Shown here piece after piece: positions 9,701-45,757 of a stretch of 50,753 bases of DNA. How positions within the stretch are numbered: position 1 is the stretch's first letter; each line of letters begins with the position of its first letter. The stretch is from Candidatus Poseidonia sp. (GTDB lineage Archaea > Thermoplasmatota > Poseidoniia > Poseidoniales > Poseidoniaceae): assembly GCA_030829545.1 (NCBI GenBank), contig JAURAI010000011.1, positions 1 to 50,753 of the forward strand. The letters are read 5' to 3'. The position numbers and the translations under genes are program-made. The notes beneath the pieces are model-generated. The model made no database searches and was not told the origin of the DNA. It saw only the letters and a program-made list of their open reading frames with translations.

Positions 9701-9767
9701 TTTCCTCGGTTAGGACAACTGACCTTTGACCGCATGGTTCAAAGTGTATGTCGGACGTGTCGGAACT

Positions 9768-12700
9768 ATGCAAGGGCGCGTTCAGCATTCAAGGTCGTCG
9801 CACGGTGTGTTCCTCCTCTTGGTCGGGTTGATGCTGTTTACGCCCTTGAGTCCGATGGCTGAATTGTTCACATCAGATGCCGAGGCAGCCGTCGGCACCC
9901 GTCACGTTTACGAATTCCACGACGGTTCAAGCGAATATATTGCACTCTACCAAGGTGCGAATGCAGACCTTGGAGCCAAGGTCTCCCTGCCGAAGGGTGC
10001 ACTGGTCACCGATGTGAGCATGACCCTTTCAGGAGCATCCGCTACAGGCTGGTCTCAAGTCGTTGCTGATGACCGAGTGCATTGGATTCGAGGAGATGAA
10101 ACCAATGTTGACGATCGTTCGGGTGATTTGACATTGGCACTTGATAACCGCAGCAATAACTTCCTTCCCCACGGAGATGATGCGTATGTTAACCCGAACT
10201 CTGATGCATGGTTGGATAACGGATCCTATGCATTGCGACAACCCCACACCTCCAACGCTACAGAGAGCCTCTTTTCCCAACAACTGACGAAAACCTCGTC
10301 CAGTTTCATGGCGCAAAGCCAAGGAGCGATTCTAAAGCACCACGATTGGCTCTTCCTGTCCACATGGTCGTCGTCAACCTTCAACAACGTTGTCCACCGC
10401 CTCTACCCGAACAATGCAACCCGTGAGTCCATCATTACGCTCGACCAAGCACAGTGTACCCTCCCACAGAAGCACTCTTCGTCCTATTACGGCTATTATG
10501 GATTCAGGGATTGGACCATCACCGATGATGAACGCCTCTTTGGAATCCTTTCGGGATATCGGTACACCTACGGGTCATCCGCCCCCGTCAATTATCACCG
10601 TGTGATGGAAATGGATATTTCTAAAGATGATACGTGGACTTGCATTGATTCCTATGACATTTCACCCTCTGTTGGTGAATATACTGGAATTGCATACGAC
10701 CGAGAGACCGGTCAGGTTTGGGTTGCGCACAACGCCATGAATCGTCTCTACGGCTATGACTTCTCGGGAGATGGGACATCAACCTACACTCGCAGCCAGG
10801 AATACTACACCTATTCCTCCTCATCCAGTTCCAAGTGGGAATGCGGTGGTACCTACAGTACCAACCAGAAGCAAATGTTGCGCGGGCTTGAAATGAACAG
10901 CACGACGTTCTTCATGCGCTGCCAAAAAGACGCTTATTACAACGACCGTGACCAACTTGAAGCATGGTCCATTTCAGGCTCATCAACAGCGCTCATTCCC
11001 GAAACTGAAGTGCGTCAAATCTCTCGTCTTGGGTACGGCCTTCAGTTTGACGGAGACCGGTTTGTGACCGTTGACAGCGGGTATTCAACGTGGTCGAGTA
11101 CCACGCTGTACTATCGTGAATTTGGTACGAGTTGGCTCTATGAGACCACACCCGCTCCCGGAACCACCACCTGGTACGGTGATGTTGTTGAATCGGGAGA
11201 CGATGTTTTGGCAGTGAATGTCCAGACATATTGGTCGGCAGCTTCCATTGGTGACCGCGTGGATTACTGGGTCTCAGCAGACAACGGCACCCATTGGGAA
11301 GAAGTCGAATCAAACCAGACCATTCATTTTGATTATCCAGGTAAGGAATTGGTTTGGAAGGCTCAACTGATCGGTTCAACCGCCGTATCATGGTGGGTCG
11401 ACATGGAATATGCCACCGCCTACACTGCCTCAGGGCAATGGGAGTCGCCTCACTTCAACACGGGCACCAAGGTCGGGAAAGTACGTCCACAATGGACTGC
11501 GGATGTTCCTGCGGGTACGACCCTTGCTGTCACCGTTTCAAACGATAACGGTTCTGTTTGGATTGAAGCAACCAACAATGCTGAAACCAGTTTCTCAACT
11601 GAAGCCGCAGGAAATACTCTGAAGTACGGAATTTCCTTTACAACCACAGATCCTTCTCTCACACCGAGCATTGACGAGTTCATCCTTGAGTACGAGGAAG
11701 GATATCCTGACCGTCCGATGCTGGATGTTGGTGGTGATGGTGATTACGATTGGGAATCTCAAATCTTCCTCAACGAGTCATCAGTGATCGCTTCTGACGA
11801 TTCAGTCGTCGGTGACATCGTCAAGAAAGCGCCAACGCTGGTCGATGCCTTCAATGACTTCATTCCCGAGAACGGTGATGGATGGCTGGACATACCAATC
11901 GGTGTCAAGGCAGCATCATCAGGGAGAGTAAAGATCTCCAATATTGACATTACCTACGCCATGCAAACTCGGGCCGTTGATGCATCCTTTGAGGGTGGCT
12001 TGGCTGCACCCGATGGTATTTATCGGAATTTCATCACCCGTGTAGCCCCCGGTGACGATGTTGACAGGGTGACAAAGGCCGTTATTGCCATCAACCATTC
12101 CTATGGAGAAAACCCCACCTTCACTTGGCAACAGGGCGATGCATGCAGCACCAACAATGACGTTGGCGAAATTGTCATGTTCGATGCTCCAAATTGCACC
12201 TCAACGGTGGATGCAAACGGTGTTCGATCAATTTGGATGCCCACAGCGGTCAACTGGAGTTGGAATGATGAAGTCTCCACAGAAGCAATTATTTCCGTAG
12301 AAGATGACTTGGGTGTAGCAGTCAGCCAGTGGGATTCGAGTACCATGGATCTCTCAGTTGAAAACGACATTCAACTCGATGGTCTTCAAGTCTGGGAAGA
12401 AACAGGTCGTCAATTGTATCCGATGGATTGGGTGCGTGGTGGTTTCAATCTCAGCTTTAGCGGTAAAATACACTTCCAAGATTCACAACTGATGCCTCCT
12501 GCCGGTAGTTTCTCACTCCGGGTTATCGGTCAAAATGTCACCTACGATGGTGACCCAATGGGTGAGCCAATCGTCCTTTACCAAGAAGTCAATCCAGCTT
12601 TCGGAGAATACAACATGACCTTCACCTCGCCCATTGAATCCTCACAGGGTGGTATGATTTTCTACGTTCAGGCTGTGGATTTGAAGAACGGTTCAACCTA

Positions 12701-15170
12701 TACCAATCCCAACTACAATTCGATGCGTCTCATCCTTGATGGAAACTCTCCTCTCGTTTTGAGTGCAACACCTTCCGATGGCGAAGAACGCCACGCAGGA
12801 GCAACGGGAGTTGGCCAAGCAGTATCGATCGTCGTTCAAGATTCCGTTGACCCACCCAAGCAAATCAGCCTTCACTATTGGGTTGGTTGCCGTGCAAGCG
12901 AAGCCATCGGATGCAATGATTACAATTTCGATGGCCTACCTAACGAAGATGAGTACGAACTCATGACGCTCTCATCTCCTGAAACTCGAACGGGAGGATT
13001 GAACATCTTTGAAGGCCTGATTGACGACTCGATGCTCCTTCACAAGCAACGCGTGTCCTTCTATGTGTCCGGGGAAGACGAGCAAAACAATCAGATTGCG
13101 ATGGGCCAGGGGCCTGTATGTCCTCAAAGCACCATCACGTGTGGGACACGGCCCGGTGAAGTATTGCCCGATTGGGATGCTGACCTTGTGACCTATTTCA
13201 TACGCCAAGAATTTGAGCCACTTGTGGATCTCGGCAATTCATCCATCATCGGTCATGATGATTACGAACCCATGCACCCGGGCATACCTTACACCGCTCA
13301 AATCAAGTTGAGTGACAGTAATGGCTGGCAAGACATTCAATACGTACAAGTTGCCTTTGGTGGCGACCTCGACGATGATGAGTCCTCTATGTTCATCACG
13401 CTTGAAGAAGGGCTCGACGGTCAGCCTGTGGCCACCATCGTGTCTGGTTCCAACAACATTGCTGTTTCAAACCTCTATTCGACGGTTGAGGTTGAAGAAA
13501 ATAATGAAACTGTGATTGTCATTCAGGCGAGATTCCAACTAACTTGGATGTTCCCAGAATCCTTTGATACCAATGGTGAATCTCATTTCATCCCTCGTAT
13601 TCGTGTAACTGATATGCCATGTAACGATGGTGAGATCATTCCTTGTTTCGAAGTAACCGAAGGCTTAGGTGACGACTGGTGGAGTTTGGACAACGACTTC
13701 CGCTTTGATACAGAAGCAGGCCACATTCGCGCCATTGAACTCCGCAACAGTGAGAACCACTACAACGCTGAGAACTTTGAGACCATTATCGGAGCAGGTC
13801 AAGCCCTCCGTGTCTCGGGTCGTGTCCTCTTCTCTGAAGACGAGACTCCCGCTCCACCAGGCGCATTTGACGTCGTGTTTGGAGATTATGAGAACAATTG
13901 GCGCACCTCAACACGTGATGATGGTGAATTCAGTCTTGACCTCCTCGTACCTTCGGTACGTTCCGGACGTCTTGACCTCCGCCTGAGCATGGACGACCTT
14001 CCCGGTCTTGCAGTGGACGAAACATCCTTTGCCCCACGTGTCCGCCTTGCTGTTGACAGTGTGCGACCCACCATTGGTGGTATTGCACTCAACGGTGTAC
14101 CCGACGGTTCACCTCTCTCAATTGGACAGGCAGATAGCCTCGAAGTACGTCTTATTACCAACGACGAGAATGGATTCAATTTCAATGAAGATGCAGTCCT
14201 GCACTACCGAGTGAAAGCCGGTGAAGCAGAAATCTCACGAGGTAGCATCTTGTTGCCTGATGTCATCTCCTTTGGTTCAGAATTCATTTGGAGCGGCCAG
14301 TTGGACTTGACAGATGCTGGAGCAACGACGTTGTTGCCTTCCTATGCAGTTGATGTGTGGGTTTCGGGATCTGATGAAGCAGGCAATCCCTACGACACTG
14401 CATCTAATTCAATGATGGAACCCTTTGCTTCATGGCCCCTCGCTCTGCTCGGACCAAGTATCGACCTCCAAGATGAAGCAACGAAACTTCAGTGGGATAA
14501 CCCAAGCCCCTATGCTGGTGAAACAGCAACAATGGTCGTAACCGCTACCAACCTTGGCGGTAACGGCATGGTTGAATTTGCCCTGCAAGAACTCGTTGAA
14601 GGCGGATACTGGTCGACCAGTTCAATGGTTGGAGTCGAGGTCACTTCGGGACAGACCCTGACGGCATCTCTTCCAGTGTCAGCTGATGCTCCTCAAGGAA
14701 CAGCGATTGAATACCGTGTTTTGGTTCTCGTCGACGGCGTCGAAATGGACCGTCAAAGTGTTGAATCTCTTCTGATCAAGGAAGAGACAGTGCGTGATGG
14801 TGAAGCCCTCTCACAGCAACTTTCGGATGATATCTTCAGCGTGACGCTGTTCATCATTGCATTGACATCTCTTTCCTTTGGAATGTACGCCCTCGTGCTA
14901 CGACGTCGGATGCTAGCACCTGAGACCGAGGAGGAAGCGGCTGACCAAACCGAAGAAGTGGTTCAGCAAATGGTCAATCAAAAGGTACTGCCGAGCATCG
15001 CTTCACCTACGCAACCACCCTCGCCCCCCGTAGCTCCGGCTCCTCCTGCACCCGCCATGAACCGTTCATCACCCCCTCCGCTTCCACCTACTGGACTACC
15101 TGACGGATGGACAGAGGACCAGTGGACTTCCTATGGTTGGCAGTATATTGATGCCCTCTCAAAGAAGTGA
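9768..15170 (+). CDS. Giant membrane-anchored surface protein with LPxGWT cytosolic tail
   Basis: 1800 residues from the ATG at 9768 (the frame is open from 9726). It has an N-terminal signal peptide (core GVFLLLVGLMLFT, then a likely cut after DAEAA), a long ectodomain, one membrane helix at about residues 1690-1712 (TLFIIALTSLSFGMYALVL) followed by RRR, and a cytosolic tail of about 90 residues. The ectodomain contains Ig/jelly-roll-like beta segments with Asp/Asn-rich stretches; NDNGSVWIEA followed by IDEFILEYEE resembles carbohydrate-binding beta sandwiches, but no family is certain. The tail is Glu-rich, then Pro-rich, and ends LPPTGLPDGWTEDQW plus YGWQYIDALSKK. Almost the same tail ends the subtilase at 45757. 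Start choice is uncertain because no strong ribosome-binding site is seen. Its stop is overlapped by the ribosome-binding site of the next gene, implying coupled expression. Confidence 0.85.
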   Translation: MQGRVQHSRSSHGVFLLLVGLMLFTPLSPMAELFTSDAEAAVGTRHVYEFHDGSSEYIALYQGANADLGAKVSLPKGALVTDVSMTLSGASATGWSQVVADDRVHWIRGDETNVDDRSGDLTLALDNRSNNFLPHGDDAYVNPNSDAWLDNGSYALRQPHTSNATESLFSQQLTKTSSSFMAQSQGAILKHHDWLFLSTWSSSTFNNVVHRLYPNNATRESIITLDQAQCTLPQKHSSSYYGYYGFRDWTITDDERLFGILSGYRYTYGSSAPVNYHRVMEMDISKDDTWTCIDSYDISPSVGEYTGIAYDRETGQVWVAHNAMNRLYGYDFSGDGTSTYTRSQEYYTYSSSSSSKWECGGTYSTNQKQMLRGLEMNSTTFFMRCQKDAYYNDRDQLEAWSISGSSTALIPETEVRQISRLGYGLQFDGDRFVTVDSGYSTWSSTTLYYREFGTSWLYETTPAPGTTTWYGDVVESGDDVLAVNVQTYWSAASIGDRVDYWVSADNGTHWEEVESNQTIHFDYPGKELVWKAQLIGSTAVSWWVDMEYATAYTASGQWESPHFNTGTKVGKVRPQWTADVPAGTTLAVTVSNDNGSVWIEATNNAETSFSTEAAGNTLKYGISFTTTDPSLTPSIDEFILEYEEGYPDRPMLDVGGDGDYDWESQIFLNESSVIASDDSVVGDIVKKAPTLVDAFNDFIPENGDGWLDIPIGVKAASSGRVKISNIDITYAMQTRAVDASFEGGLAAPDGIYRNFITRVAPGDDVDRVTKAVIAINHSYGENPTFTWQQGDACSTNNDVGEIVMFDAPNCTSTVDANGVRSIWMPTAVNWSWNDEVSTEAIISVEDDLGVAVSQWDSSTMDLSVENDIQLDGLQVWEETGRQLYPMDWVRGGFNLSFSGKIHFQDSQLMPPAGSFSLRVIGQNVTYDGDPMGEPIVLYQEVNPAFGEYNMTFTSPIESSQGGMIFYVQAVDLKNGSTYTNPNYNSMRLILDGNSPLVLSATPSDGEERHAGATGVGQAVSIVVQDSVDPPKQISLHYWVGCRASEAIGCNDYNFDGLPNEDEYELMTLSSPETRTGGLNIFEGLIDDSMLLHKQRVSFYVSGEDEQNNQIAMGQGPVCPQSTITCGTRPGEVLPDWDADLVTYFIRQEFEPLVDLGNSSIIGHDDYEPMHPGIPYTAQIKLSDSNGWQDIQYVQVAFGGDLDDDESSMFITLEEGLDGQPVATIVSGSNNIAVSNLYSTVEVEENNETVIVIQARFQLTWMFPESFDTNGESHFIPRIRVTDMPCNDGEIIPCFEVTEGLGDDWWSLDNDFRFDTEAGHIRAIELRNSENHYNAENFETIIGAGQALRVSGRVLFSEDETPAPPGAFDVVFGDYENNWRTSTRDDGEFSLDLLVPSVRSGRLDLRLSMDDLPGLAVDETSFAPRVRLAVDSVRPTIGGIALNGVPDGSPLSIGQADSLEVRLITNDENGFNFNEDAVLHYRVKAGEAEISRGSILLPDVISFGSEFIWSGQLDLTDAGATTLLPSYAVDVWVSGSDEAGNPYDTASNSMMEPFASWPLALLGPSIDLQDEATKLQWDNPSPYAGETATMVVTATNLGGNGMVEFALQELVEGGYWSTSSMVGVEVTSGQTLTASLPVSADAPQGTAIEYRVLVLVDGVEMDRQSVESLLIKEETVRDGEALSQQLSDDIFSVTLFIIALTSLSFGMYALVLRRRMLAPETEEEAADQTEEVVQQMVNQKVLPSIASPTQPPSPPVAPAPPAPAMNRSSPPPLPPTGLPDGWTEDQWTSYGWQYIDALSKK

Positions 15171-40745: not shown

Positions 40746-40792
40746 GCACACCGATGAGGTGTATTCAAAAGTGGGGTGGAAGTCCCCATGAT

Positions 40793-43700
40793 ATGCGTTC
40801 ACGAGTAACTCTTCTGTTCGTACTCCTTCTCTTTGTTTTAACGCCGCTTTCTCAGGCGATTAATTCCACAGTATCTGCCTCTCATCTTGACCAAGAAGAA
40901 CAACCCGAAATGATGGCTGTTCAGGCACTCTCAGACGAAGAGCAATTGCAACTGGCCGCAGATCATTGGAGTGAAATGCCGAACGCTCAAATGATTTCTA
41001 TTGAGTTGAAAGATGCCTCTGGCATGCTCCATTTGGCTGCAGGGAGTTTTGATCCCACCCAAACAAAGGGCCCCGATGTCGCTTCAAGTCTGCGTCGTTC
41101 AGACGATGCAGCCCATACTGGTTTGGCTATGCTCCAACTTCATGATTCAAACGGACAAGTCCTTTCAGACCTCGTTGCTGAATACGGCCTCAAGGTCCTC
41201 GATGCGCTCCATGACGAAGGTTGGCTCGTACGACTTCCCAATGCACCCACCTCTACCATTCAAACTCTCAACGAAGACGAACGTGTTCGGTGGGTAGGCC
41301 ATCAACAGCCGGGATGGCGGCTCGCACCAGAATTGTTGACCTTCACGGAAGCGGACCAGTATATTTCGATGATTCCCTCATCTGACTTGGGCTTGGGTGG
41401 TTACGGAGATTTAGCAACCGACCTTGTCCGTTACGGCGCCGTGGAAGCATGGTGTGATGAGTGGAGTTGTCAATCTCTCGTCACATCTCAATCCTACATT
41501 GAATTCATCCGCAACATTGCTCATGATGGACGTATTATCTGGAGTGAACTCGCCATGGAACTACGAGTGCACAATGCAATTGCCTGGTCACTCTCAGGTG
41601 TTCAAAGCGTTGAGGACAATGCAGCGTTCACCCTTGATGGCTCAGGAGAGATGATTGCTATTTCGGATACGGGGTTGGATCAAAACCACCCTGATTTGGT
41701 GGGGCGTGTCGCCGCCACATACACCCAGTTTGGACTTGATACCTCCCCCGCTGATAGCAATGCAGGGCACGGCACGCACGTTGCGGTCACTGTGCTCGGT
41801 GATGGTTCGGGCGATTCCTCTGCCCGAGGCATTGCGCCCGAAGCCAACCTGGTCATGTACGCTCTCGAGCACGACCCAACTGGTGTCTTTGGACGAATCG
41901 GCTCAATCTACGACTTGCTCAGGGATGCTGAGCAAATGACGGCACGGATCGCAGTGAATGCGTGGGGTTTGAATGGGAATTACGGTCAGTACTCGGCTGA
42001 TGCCCGTTCAGTTGACGTTTTCGTTAACGACCGTCAGGACGTAACCCCCATTTTTTCAGTTGGTGACCGTGGTACCTCGGGAGCCTCTCAAGTTACTTCT
42101 CCTGGAACTGCGAAGAACGTCATCGCCATCGGGGCATCAACCACTGGCATGTCTGGAACCGCTCAAGCGGGGGCAGTTGCAAATTTCTCATCCCAAGGGC
42201 CGAGTCTTGATGGGCGCATCAAGCCGGACCTTGTTGCCCCTGGAGTTGGTATTTGTTCTGGTCTGGCAGAAGAAGCTCAAAGTCCAGCAGGTCCAGATTG
42301 CCTCACAGGGTCCCATGCAGGCGGCAATGCCTACTACATGTCCCTCTCAGGTACATCTCAGGCCACGGCAGTTGCGTCGGGTGTCGCTGCGCTTACCCGT
42401 GAATTCATTCGAGAGCAGGTGGGAGTTAGCTCTCCGTCCAGTGCCTTGGTTAAAGCAGCCATGATAAACGGGGCAACCGATTTGGGGACACCAGACATAC
42501 CGAACAATCTCGAGGGTTGGGGCCAGATTGATCTCGAACGTACCGTGATGCCAACGGACGGAACGACAACTTTGGACACCTTCTTTGATGATAACAAACC
42601 ACTTGAATCTGGTTTTGGTTTACTTTATTCTTTCTCACTTGACCCGTCCCACGGCATTGATATCACCCTCGCTTGGACCGATGAAGCAGGCAGTGCGAAC
42701 GCACCCGGTAACCAAAAGCGATTGGTCAATGACCTTGATTTGGTACTTATCGATCCGTCCGGCACCCAATGGCTCGGCAATCAATTTTCACAAGGTTTCT
42801 CCGTGATTGGTGGTTCTGCTGACGAAACCAACAATGTCGAACGCATTCGTATCGCATCAGGTGCGCTCCCATCCTCTCAAGGACAGTGGATCGTCCAAGT
42901 CCTCCACAGAGGTGGGACCACTCAAAACTTTGGTCTTGTGATGGCAGCCGCTGCGACTCCAACTCCACAAGCCGATTTGGTGGTGTTTGACGGAAGTATT
43001 CTCACCTCTTCTGTCAATCCGCTTAAGGACGACCTCATTTCCATTCGTCTTGCTTGGGTAAACCAAGGAACCAGCACGTCCGGTGATTTTGACATCATCT
43101 TAGAAGACACCACAACACAACAAACGCTGGCAACTTCCACACGGTCAGCCCTCGCTCCTGGAATGATCGATTCCTATACCATCTTCCACCAATTCACGAC
43201 CACAGGCATCCATTCGCTTCGTTTGGCGATTGATACTGGGAATCAAGTCCCAGAAATGAACGATGCATCCAGTGGGACGGACAACAATATCTGGGAACAA
43301 GATGTGGAGGTCACTGCTCTAGGGGTTCGAGTGGTCATTGCCAACGCAGACGGGACTGTTCCTGAAACAGCCGAAGAACGGTCCAACAACGCAGTCATCA
43401 ATTTGGACGTGCGCAATGATTCTGGAATTGACCTTCCTCTCGTGATTCTTCACGAGGGTACGGGAAACCAATCGGTTTTGCTCTCTTCTTCCATGGTTCA
43501 AATTCCAGCTCCCGGAAGAGAAAATTTCTTCTTGCCAAGCGCCGATCTATGGTCCAGAAATTTTGATGAAACGCCCAATTTTGTTCTGACTGGCCAAGGT
43601 ACGAATGACGCCAATAAAAGCATTAATCTACGCCTGGAAGATTTGGATGCAGACCTCACAACGAACCCAGAAAACCCTCGGTATGTGCGTGCAGGAACCT

Positions 43701-45757
43701 ATGTTGTTGAACTAACAGCAAGGTACGAATTCCAGCCTACTGTCACGCATACTCAACGTGTCACCATCAATGTTGAACAAATTGATCAAGTCCAAGTGGT
43801 AACGGCTGGAAGCAGTGGATTATCTGCAAAACCAGGGAGCTCAAGTTTCTTTTCAATTTCAGTGCGAAATACAGGGAATGCTCCGGCCCAATACAGTATT
43901 GATTGCGTATCTGAACAACGGTGGCAATTGATGCTCGGCGGCTCAAACTCGTCCCAATTGGACTTTGAACCGCTCAATATTCTCGAGTACCTACCGATGT
44001 CAATTCGCATTATTGTTCCTCTTGTTGCAAATGGAGTCCCTGCAGCGGGTGATACTGACCAAGTTACCTGTTATGTCACATCCTTGACCGACCCTACGAT
44101 GAATTTCACCGAAACAGTGACCATTGAAGTCTTACCTCAGGAATCCTTTGATGTGAACCTTCTTGACGATGAAGGCCCAGTGGGTCCCTCTCAACTGGCA
44201 GACGATATCTCTGTGGATAACGGGCAACAGGTCCATCTGAATGTTTCAGTAGAAAATACTGGAAACATCGCAGTCGATTTAGAGGTCTCAGTTCTGCCAG
44301 ACAACCCACAATGGGCTATGGAAGTTCGGTATGACACGCAAAAGGATTCACGAAAAGTCACTCTTTCATTGGCCCCGGGCATGACCACAACGGTCGAGTT
44401 GGTCTTCGCAGTTCCACTCACTGCGGAAGAAGGTGACTCAAATACCTACACCATACGAACGGAGCGATCCAACCAAAACTTCATCCAAAACATCACGAAA
44501 TTGATTGTCCGTGATGAATTGGGGATCACACTCACTCCTCCCTCCGACTCAATCATTGAAGTGTCAATCGGTGATGTCTATTCATACGGTGAATTCGTCG
44601 TAAAGAATACAGGGAATACCGACTTAACCCTCAATTGGACTCACGGATTGGCTCTTGATGGATGGCAAGTTGGTTTCGCCAACCCGTCGCTCTACCTTGA
44701 ACCACGAGAAGAAAAAGTGGTTCGCTTTGGCCTTATTCCTCCAGCACAAGAGCAAGTGTCTCAGAATGCATTTGAAATTTTAATTGCAGTAGAAGGGTCC
44801 AATGCTGGAAGGGTTGTTGAATCCAGTCAGATGATGACCATTGCAGTTGTTGAATCCTCCTTTGCGAACATCACCATTGAAACTGAAAGCGAGCAGCCAT
44901 TGCGTGGTATTTCTCGTCAGGACGGCCGTTCTCTCACGCTTGTTGTTCGCAACGATGGCAACATTCCATTGAATGCAGAACTCACTGGGGTTCTGTTGGG
45001 CAAGGATGAGATGATTCGTAGTGATTGGGACCTTGACCTCAGTATGACAACCATCAGTGATTTGTCGGTTGGGGACTCGGTTGACCTCGTCATCACGCTC
45101 ATGCCATCTGAATCTGTCAGTCGTTCGATGGTACAATTCCATCTCAAAATCACGGTGGGTGCAACCGTCGTTGCATCACAAACAATTGATGTCAGCGTAG
45201 AAACTGCCACAGGTGACGGAGGTTTGTTCAGCATACTTCCTCCCGCAGTAAGTTTTGGACTTGTCACTGTTGCACTCATCGGCTTGGTCGTGATTGGCCG
45301 TCGTATGAAAAAATCAGGTGAATTGGGTGATGATGGATTGGAATTGGTAGCGCCAAATACCCATGTCAATCCAGACCTTCTCGATGAACGCCGGAATAAT
45401 GCGCTCGATTTGGGCAATTCAGTTGACGACTTGACCAGCGGTGAAGTCAGTGACGACGAGATTGCGCAGGCCATCATGCAATCAATGGATCTTCCAGCCC
45501 TTCCTGCTCAAGTTCCCTCGGGCTTACCTCCTGCAGGATTGCCTCCGCGTAGAGCCGCTTCCGCCCCGCTGCCAATGGGCCTTCCACCAGCAGGCATGCC
45601 TCCCGTTGCTAAACAGTTGCCCGCCTTGCCACAAGCCCTTCCAACTGCACCAGCGGTGCAGACTGGTCCGCCCCTACCGCCCGGTGGCTTACCGTCCGGG
45701 TGGACTGCCGAACAATGGCAGCATTATGGCCATGAATGGCTCAAGCGACAAGGCTGA
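40793..45757 (+). CDS. Giant membrane-anchored subtilisin-like protease (S8) with LPxGWT tail
   Basis: 1654 residues from the ATG at 40793 (MRSRVTLLFVLLLFVLTPLS, a signal peptide); the frame is open from 40754. A propeptide-like region precedes the S8 domain, with Asp292 in AISDTGLD, His326 in NAGHGTHVA and Ser522 in LSGTSQATA. At the oxyanion position the usual Asn is Asp425 (FSVGDRGTSG). A P-domain-like jelly roll (FSLDPSHGIDITLAWTDEAG, then VNDLDLVLIDPSG) follows. Several CARDB/NEW3-like Ig modules come after (VRNTGNAPAQYSI, VENTGNIAVDLEV, VKNTGNTDLTLNW, VRNDGNIPLNAEL). A membrane helix lies at about 1480-1505, then basic residues and a tail of about 150 residues ending LPPGGLPSGWTAEQW then QHYGHEWLKRQG. 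Likely an extracellular protease for protein-rich organic matter, cell-anchored. Confidence 0.9.
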   Translation: MRSRVTLLFVLLLFVLTPLSQAINSTVSASHLDQEEQPEMMAVQALSDEEQLQLAADHWSEMPNAQMISIELKDASGMLHLAAGSFDPTQTKGPDVASSLRRSDDAAHTGLAMLQLHDSNGQVLSDLVAEYGLKVLDALHDEGWLVRLPNAPTSTIQTLNEDERVRWVGHQQPGWRLAPELLTFTEADQYISMIPSSDLGLGGYGDLATDLVRYGAVEAWCDEWSCQSLVTSQSYIEFIRNIAHDGRIIWSELAMELRVHNAIAWSLSGVQSVEDNAAFTLDGSGEMIAISDTGLDQNHPDLVGRVAATYTQFGLDTSPADSNAGHGTHVAVTVLGDGSGDSSARGIAPEANLVMYALEHDPTGVFGRIGSIYDLLRDAEQMTARIAVNAWGLNGNYGQYSADARSVDVFVNDRQDVTPIFSVGDRGTSGASQVTSPGTAKNVIAIGASTTGMSGTAQAGAVANFSSQGPSLDGRIKPDLVAPGVGICSGLAEEAQSPAGPDCLTGSHAGGNAYYMSLSGTSQATAVASGVAALTREFIREQVGVSSPSSALVKAAMINGATDLGTPDIPNNLEGWGQIDLERTVMPTDGTTTLDTFFDDNKPLESGFGLLYSFSLDPSHGIDITLAWTDEAGSANAPGNQKRLVNDLDLVLIDPSGTQWLGNQFSQGFSVIGGSADETNNVERIRIASGALPSSQGQWIVQVLHRGGTTQNFGLVMAAAATPTPQADLVVFDGSILTSSVNPLKDDLISIRLAWVNQGTSTSGDFDIILEDTTTQQTLATSTRSALAPGMIDSYTIFHQFTTTGIHSLRLAIDTGNQVPEMNDASSGTDNNIWEQDVEVTALGVRVVIANADGTVPETAEERSNNAVINLDVRNDSGIDLPLVILHEGTGNQSVLLSSSMVQIPAPGRENFFLPSADLWSRNFDETPNFVLTGQGTNDANKSINLRLEDLDADLTTNPENPRYVRAGTYVVELTARYEFQPTVTHTQRVTINVEQIDQVQVVTAGSSGLSAKPGSSSFFSISVRNTGNAPAQYSIDCVSEQRWQLMLGGSNSSQLDFEPLNILEYLPMSIRIIVPLVANGVPAAGDTDQVTCYVTSLTDPTMNFTETVTIEVLPQESFDVNLLDDEGPVGPSQLADDISVDNGQQVHLNVSVENTGNIAVDLEVSVLPDNPQWAMEVRYDTQKDSRKVTLSLAPGMTTTVELVFAVPLTAEEGDSNTYTIRTERSNQNFIQNITKLIVRDELGITLTPPSDSIIEVSIGDVYSYGEFVVKNTGNTDLTLNWTHGLALDGWQVGFANPSLYLEPREEKVVRFGLIPPAQEQVSQNAFEILIAVEGSNAGRVVESSQMMTIAVVESSFANITIETESEQPLRGISRQDGRSLTLVVRNDGNIPLNAELTGVLLGKDEMIRSDWDLDLSMTTISDLSVGDSVDLVITLMPSESVSRSMVQFHLKITVGATVVASQTIDVSVETATGDGGLFSILPPAVSFGLVTVALIGLVVIGRRMKKSGELGDDGLELVAPNTHVNPDLLDERRNNALDLGNSVDDLTSGEVSDDEIAQAIMQSMDLPALPAQVPSGLPPAGLPPRRAASAPLPMGLPPAGMPPVAKQLPALPQALPTAPAVQTGPPLPPGGLPSGWTAEQWQHYGHEWLKRQG

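Follow-up and report, generated by a model that had tools for sequence, protein, structure and literature searches.

Two giant surface proteins encoded in a 50,753-nucleotide stretch of a Candidatus Poseidonia sp. genome (order Poseidoniales; GCA_030829545.1, contig JAURAI010000011.1; the whole stretch analysed, hereafter the window) end in nearly the same short C-terminal module. This tail of about 27 residues, P-P-[LIV]-P-x-x-G-[LI]-P-x-G-W-[TS]-x-[ED]-Q-W-x-x-Y-G-x-x-[WY]-L, is real and strongly conserved, and in the genomes sampled it is confined to one archaeal order. Its best reading is docking to a common partner at the inner face of the membrane: the tail probably serves as a docking module in the cytosol, where a single conserved, putative partner, cytosolic or at the inner face, would hold it. 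The two window proteins, P0001 and P0002, are built alike: a signal-like hydrophobic start is followed by a giant ectodomain, then by a single membrane helix with basic residues after it, and by a Pro-rich linker that leads to the tail. The two tails are identical in 15 alignment columns. A first-pass annotation of the window had described this near-identical segment after a membrane helix and a Pro-rich linker, and the frames and tails are as it described them; the motif it gave also stands, with the conserved module slightly longer, from PP[LIV]P to about [WY]L. The features of the two genes, with expect values (E) for the matches, are:

9726..15170, + strand: P0001, giant type I membrane protein (predicted), 1814 residues, no Pfam family at E ≤ 0.001
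14841..14897, + strand: P0001 predicted membrane helix, with LRRRM behind it (positive inside)
14898..15071, + strand: P0001 linker, predicted cytosolic, acidic then Pro-rich
15072..15167, + strand: P0001 C-terminal tail module PPPLPPTGLPDGWTEDQWTSYGWQYIDALSKK, eight-tail profile E 4.9e-17
40754..45757, + strand: P0002, giant type I membrane subtilase (topology predicted), 1667 residues, PF00082 E 1.1e-44, CARDB E 1e-7
41639..42523, + strand: P0002 subtilase (Peptidase_S8) domain, from Pfam
45242..45298, + strand: P0002 predicted membrane helix, with RRMKK behind it (positive inside)
45299..45667, + strand: P0002 linker, predicted cytosolic, second half Pro-rich
45668..45754, + strand: P0002 C-terminal tail module PPLPPGGLPSGWTAEQWQHYGHEWLKRQG, eight-tail profile E 2.1e-17, modelled with AlphaFold2

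P0001 likely starts at the ATG at 9768, ahead of its signal sequence, and its single weak Pfam match has an E of 0.032. The frame upstream, P0003 (3869-9700, + strand, 1943 residues), ends 25 bases ahead of the P0001 frame, possibly in one operon with it; it has weak matches to bacterial TSP3 repeats and is without the tail motif.

With the P0002 tail as query, nine places were retrieved in the same genome (E 1.5e-18 to 2.2e-7), both window copies among them. A profile of eight of the nine tails gave nine strong places (E 2.7e-19 to 7.4e-13), again including both window tails. The six frames with strong matches outside the window share the plan of the window proteins, with an N-terminal hydrophobic stretch, a long ectodomain, a near-end membrane helix, a linker, and the tail, and a related frame on contig C9 has the same architecture; one frame of this plan contains an extra, weaker hydrophobic stretch at residue 421. 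At the ninth place, on contig C1, the tail is separated from its frame by an in-frame stop and was for this reason excluded from the profile. The C1 frame (L034:3080-5248:+) encodes an arylsulfotransferase-like surface protein that stops after the membrane helix, with the tail in the same frame beyond the stop; in a relative, L175, the tail is in frame.

Outside the tail, the carriers in this genome are related in two pairs only. Their ectodomains match subtilase, arylsulfotransferase (C1), PKD, beta-propeller-like, thrombospondin-3/NHL, Ig-like, and cadherin-like families, several of these matches falling short of Pfam's cut-off. Averaged over all pairs of the eight carriers, the tail is 63% identical, compared with 17% for the membrane helix and 12% for the linker, and the tail value is also 63% when only pairs from different ectodomain clusters are taken. 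These eight tails, which were not selected by a search pattern, all share the residues P, P, P, G, L, P, G, W, Q, W, Y, and G, and the residue after the Thr/Ser is variable (M, A, E, or V). In 445 kb of this genome, 28 frames have a loosely defined signal and C-terminal helix, 6 of them with the tail; by hand count, the tail is found on 6 of the 17 such frames with at least 600 residues and at least 40 residues past the last helix. Among the rest are frames with Trp-rich, zinc-ribbon-like, or UBA-like endings and frames that stop shortly after the helix. As only part of the comparable surface proteins have the tail, it is not a general export signal.

All 115 sampled genomes of the order, from 21 of 21 genera, encode the tail, with 5-12 copies per genome in the family of the window genome (n = 57) and 1-7 in a second family (n = 58). 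Together with the nine places in the window genome, this bears out the earlier view that the shared ending is not due to chance. Among 389 genomes of the phylum, 127 gave a match, every one within the order, and the 262 phylum genomes outside the order, seven of them from another order of the same class, gave no tail match at E ≤ 0.001. At E ≤ 1, an 81-tail profile found five weak matches in these seven same-class genomes (E 0.003-0.7), none with tail context, all of them short frames or GLPSGWT within an ectodomain. Two of the proteins with these weak matches are distantly similar to a carrier ectodomain (26% over 426 residues, E 1e-8) and end right after the membrane helix, without a tail. 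One ectodomain type (cluster 0, see below), sought in 20 genomes outside the order, had a single weak match among them (G119, 28% over 172 residues, E 6.6e-7), so that gain of the tail is not comparable there.

The view beyond the phylum consists of the listed matches to GWTMEQW, for which a DNA pattern gave at least 114 stretches in GTDB genomes, 80 of them with titles. Among the matches listed, 77 of the 80 titled rows are archaeal, many from Poseidoniales, Poseidoniaceae, or Thalassarchaeaceae and others labelled just Euryarchaeota or similar. The three bacterial rows (Coprococcus, a gammaproteobacterium, and Acidaminococcus) contain the heptapeptide within unrelated proteins and without tail context, and six viral stretches match the DNA pattern, none in tail context; both sets were attributed to chance, and spread of the tail by viruses was rejected. 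The 111 remaining stretches among the matches listed comprise 116 matches, of which those with fewer than 200 in-frame residues upstream (n = 9), with N near the end (n = 9), or open at the 3' end (n = 1) were dropped, leaving 97 usable database carriers. One locus, L188, has two tail copies in one frame, with a run of N between them in the assembly.

The ectodomains of these carriers are diverse, as the first-pass annotation had held for the two window proteins. For 102 carriers (94 from the database and 8 from the window genome; three with ectodomains shorter than 150 residues were omitted), BLAST clustering at E 1e-10, which judges closeness at that level and not distant kinship, sorted the ectodomains into nine clusters when alignments of 150 residues were required and into 13 at 200 residues; the arylsulfotransferase protein falls into one of the nine. 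The tail is thus not restricted to close paralogs. In a comparison of both families (46 loci, two of which yielded no tail by regular expression), clusters 0, 2, 3, and 4 bear the tail in both, so it is probably older than the family split and was probably already present on at least four unrelated ectodomain types before the families separated.

Since the scan required GWTMEQW, these seven positions were left out of the identity figures for the 102 tails. At the 20 remaining unselected positions, tails are 65% identical within ectodomain clusters and 57% between them, with 11% expected from composition; per-cluster identities of 70%-78% include the seven search-fixed positions and are therefore inflated. 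At positions that the search left free, all 97 database carriers have P-7, G-4, P-2, and G10, and 96 have Y9; the PPLP stretch has P-10 in 91, P-9 in 83, L/I/V-8 in 97, and P-7 in 97. No Lys or Arg position is conserved in the tail. P-7, G-4, P-2, G0, T2, and G10 each occur with all four synonymous codons, indicating that selection acts on the protein.

The C-terminus of the carriers is predicted to be cytosolic. A membrane helix, called as a stretch with a mean hydropathy of at least 1.7 before the tail, lies upstream in 97 of 97 usable carriers, and the tail was accordingly not seen on soluble proteins. Counted over 12 residues on each side, Lys and Arg are more frequent after the helix than before it in 95 of the 97 carriers and less frequent in none. 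The inner part contains no Cys in 10,557 residues, compared with 0.92% Cys in the outer part, and 0.29 versus 0.87 sequons per 100 residues. These figures favour the cytosolic placement proposed in the earlier annotation, which remains a prediction. The motif lies 30-149 residues downstream of the helix, and the distance from its start to the protein end is 16-24 residues in 81 of the 97 carriers, 46-50 in 13, and 76-84 in 3.

An AlphaFold2 model of the P0002 tail, made with 81 alignment rows for 45 residues, predicts a confident turn plus helix (mean predicted local distance difference test score (pLDDT) 79; 90 for residues 21-30 and 91 for residues 31-40), with the helix spanning residues 30-44. 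Helix amphipathicity is above that of shuffled sequences (mean z 1.7; z > 1 in 89 of 102 tails), and W-T-x-E-Q-W is consistent with the onset of a helix that has a capping box and a hydrophobic staple. Searches of Pfam, NCBIfam, and the PDB gave no family that accounts for the tail; single weak matches to DUF4245 (0.098), BcpO (0.094), AzuC (0.11), and a WW fragment (0.86) were judged to be chance.

Several known systems resemble the tail in part. In the short C-terminal domain (SHOCT), Gly, a hydrophobic residue, and Thr are followed by a helix with acidic and aromatic residues, a pattern that the tail resembles, and SHOCT has a helix at the place of the tail's PPLP. Excerpts of PMC3581485 describe SHOCT (PF09851) as a short C-terminal module on many unrelated proteins with unknown function, and the C-terminal position of the tail on diverse proteins is as expected of a SHOCT-type module. 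None of the 81 tails matched PF09851 at E ≤ 10 with the HMMER filters on, which drop most matches above about 0.1, and neither did any of the eight tails from the window genome; weak SHOCT matches within the order, seen in 7 of 40 genomes, concern different genes and stay below the cut-off. Sortase-type C-terminal tags (LPXTG, GlyGly-CTERM, MYXO-CTERM, and PGF-CTERM) offer a further likeness, one tag on many unrelated surface proteins that points to a many-to-one partner. In LPXTG, MYXO-CTERM, and PGF-CTERM tags, the motif is followed by a hydrophobic helix and a basic end. The parts of PMC6219818 available to us give the same order for GlyGly-CTERM, with the motif ahead of a hydrophobic helix and a basic stretch at the end. 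In contrast, the tail motif is 30-149 residues behind the helix, on the predicted inner side, in 97 of 97 carriers. The pancreatic-polypeptide and Trp-cage miniproteins, which combine a polyproline stretch with an adjacent amphipathic, aromatic helix in about 30 residues, are likened to the tail by architecture only.

If the tail is a docking module, its Pro-Pro-[Leu/Ile/Val]-Pro stretch and Gly-Leu-Pro-x-Gly-Trp turn would precede a short amphipathic helix, [Thr/Ser]-x-[Glu/Asp]-Gln-Trp-x-x-Tyr-Gly-x-x-[Trp/Tyr]-Leu, and a flexible linker would suspend this unit 30-149 residues behind the membrane helix, where one conserved inner-face partner may grip it. Docking would most likely tether, cluster, or retain chosen giant surface proteins, of protease, arylsulfotransferase-like, Ig/PKD, propeller-like, and thrombospondin-repeat types. 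As the tail emerges last from the ribosome tunnel, well after the membrane helix, it cannot be the first export-targeting signal and must act on the inserted protein.

Several observations weigh against such docking. The analysis turned up no partner gene. Five carrier loci, two on C21, one on C3, and both window loci, were inspected by eye with the aid of Pfam labels on some window genes, and no gene was seen to recur next to them. The copy number ranges from 1 to 12 per genome, and the topology is predicted from hydropathy and charge. The predicted template-modelling score (pTM) is low (0.48 for 45 residues) and Foldseek gave no match of the tail model to the PDB, a search that is little informative at this length; it is therefore not certain that the tail folds stably on its own. 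The nearest tail is from the same ectodomain cluster in 76 of 102 cases, so that tails mostly descend with their proteins and common descent adds to their likeness. Of the common receptor, sorting, or retention machinery suggested in the first-pass annotation, the shared, conserved module, predicted to be cytosolic, holds up, whereas a single reader of it is the best inference.

Alternatively, tails may bind one another through the aromatic face of the helix, gathering surface proteins without a separate partner. The amphipathic, aromatic-rich helix would suit this, as would double-unit relatives on other giants and the two copies in one frame of L188, but Tyr9, Gly10, P-7, G-4, and P-2 are invariant or nearly so in the 97 carriers, which fits a defined binding groove better, and the eight unselected tails of the window genome all share G, W, Q, W, Y, and G at the helix end, making such self-association fairly unlikely. 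A role as completion or quality-control tag, recognised by a protease or chaperone that would govern turnover or shedding of inserted giants, is quite unlikely: although the tail is translated last and, in 81 of 97 carriers, 16-24 residues lie between the motif start and the protein end, the other 16 have a further stretch behind it (motif start 46-84 residues from the end), and inspection of the five loci by eye gave neither a protease nor a chaperone gene among the neighbours. The aromatic amphipathic character and the membrane helix in all 97 usable carriers would also agree with a helix lying on the inner leaflet to sense or stabilise the membrane; this role would not require the invariant Pro, Gly, and Gln or the PPLP, and the lack of any conserved Lys/Arg position likewise makes it very unlikely. 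Polyproline ribosome stalling was considered and would leave the conserved helix unexplained.

A last alternative is that PPLP serves as ligand for WW or WW-like modules borne by further proteins in the same cells, whether surface or soluble. The tail shares a PPLP-containing proline-rich sequence with ligands of WW domains of the Prp40/FBP11 type, and WW domains above the Pfam cut-off are found in 3 of 60 genomes of the order, all from the second family:

1501-1575 in L309: WW domain as the final segment of a giant surface protein with thrombospondin-3 repeats, past the membrane helix
668-751 in L308: WW domain near the start of a small membrane protein
1501-1581 in L310: WW domain within a long frame

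The closest PDB relatives of the L309 domain are Prp40/PRPF40A. According to the accessible portion of PMC11079029, the first WW domain of PRPF40A binds PPLP, best in PPLPPGAP, to which PPLPPGGLP of the tail is close, and a bacterial WW-like motif has been described (PMC12331936, seen in extract). However, no WW match was found in 57 of the 60 genomes, the window genome among them, and WW domains are too rare to be the general receptor of the tail. Trp-rich tails (see below), at most candidate WW-like modules, have no Pfam WW match and are found in just 6 of 25 second-family genomes, and a WW-type interaction would leave the conserved helix beyond PPLP unexplained; it is highly improbable. The tail itself was also considered as a WW domain and rejected, as it has no Pfam WW match, a PDB match of nine residues only (SGLPEGWEM, E 0.86), and a helix in the AlphaFold2 model.

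Docking to an inner-face partner would be of interest as the carriers are very large surface proteins of abundant ocean archaea, mostly unrelated otherwise. The tail occurs on both proteases and probable adhesins and in all genomes sampled from the order, and so offers a direct handle on the putative partner. It also suggests that in these archaea surface proteins are addressed from the cytosolic side, in contrast to sortase-type tags, which are known from outside the membrane. We found no account of the tail in the literature searched on surface and transmembrane proteins of Poseidoniales/Marine Group II, and five tail motif strings gave one chance match, in an unrelated paper, in full-text literature. 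The sections of PMC6461757 and PMC6864105 at hand cover adhesion, flagella, thrombospondins, and flotillin; they contain no tail and name nothing as organiser of the surface proteins of these archaea.

A Trp-rich tail is a second shared tail: all 30 genomes sampled from the window genome's family have it, compared with 6 of 25 from the second family, and a single borderline match (E 9.4e-4) lies outside the order. It is borne by giants and by a soluble protein of about 240 residues (L037:25-780:- on contig C2, MAKKKGGFGRFLGAITGSPYERLLKQ, and its orthologs), which has a conserved Trp-rich acidic C-terminus and weak, scattered Pfam matches. Compared with WW domains, Trp-rich tails gave an hhalign E of 0.15 and a probability of 0.4% (from small alignments), and four Trp-rich proteins had no match to Pfam WW. 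Trp-rich modules were rejected as an obligatory receptor because they occur in only those 6 second-family genomes, yet the PPLP tail is found in all 58 sampled genomes of that family.

In addition, two diverged double-unit versions of the tail are found on other giants of the window genome:

Contig C9: double-unit version IPEGWTLEQYRLWLEGPCPEGWAEEQW on a PA14/laminin-G protein
Contig C13: double-unit version VPGWTEDMVAQYLLQGWTMDQLATYYQEQ on a lamin-tail/phospholipase-D protein

For the C13 type, 243 phylum genomes gave 35 with a match (31 from the window genome's family and 4 from the second), some of the hits being on other giants; for the C9 type, 24 of 194 genomes matched, and these belong without exception to the window genome's family. 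These endings could form an inner-face docking code, in which giants end in the PPLP plus GWT-helix tail, its double-unit relatives, Trp-rich or zinc-ribbon-like modules, or, in some species, true WW domains, and pairing of PPLP with WW or Trp-rich modules could cross-link the coat from inside, with the Trp-rich module on the soluble protein as a candidate scaffold. Such a code is unlikely, and if true, it would represent eukaryote-like adaptor logic in an archaeon. Two further giant surface proteins (C21:15834-19916:- and C21:166850-171754:-) have zinc-ribbon-like CxxC pairs past the membrane helix, and a 2,261-residue frame (C3:140391-147173:-) has repeated Gln-Gly-Tyr units behind its membrane helix and a weak UBA match (E 0.0037).

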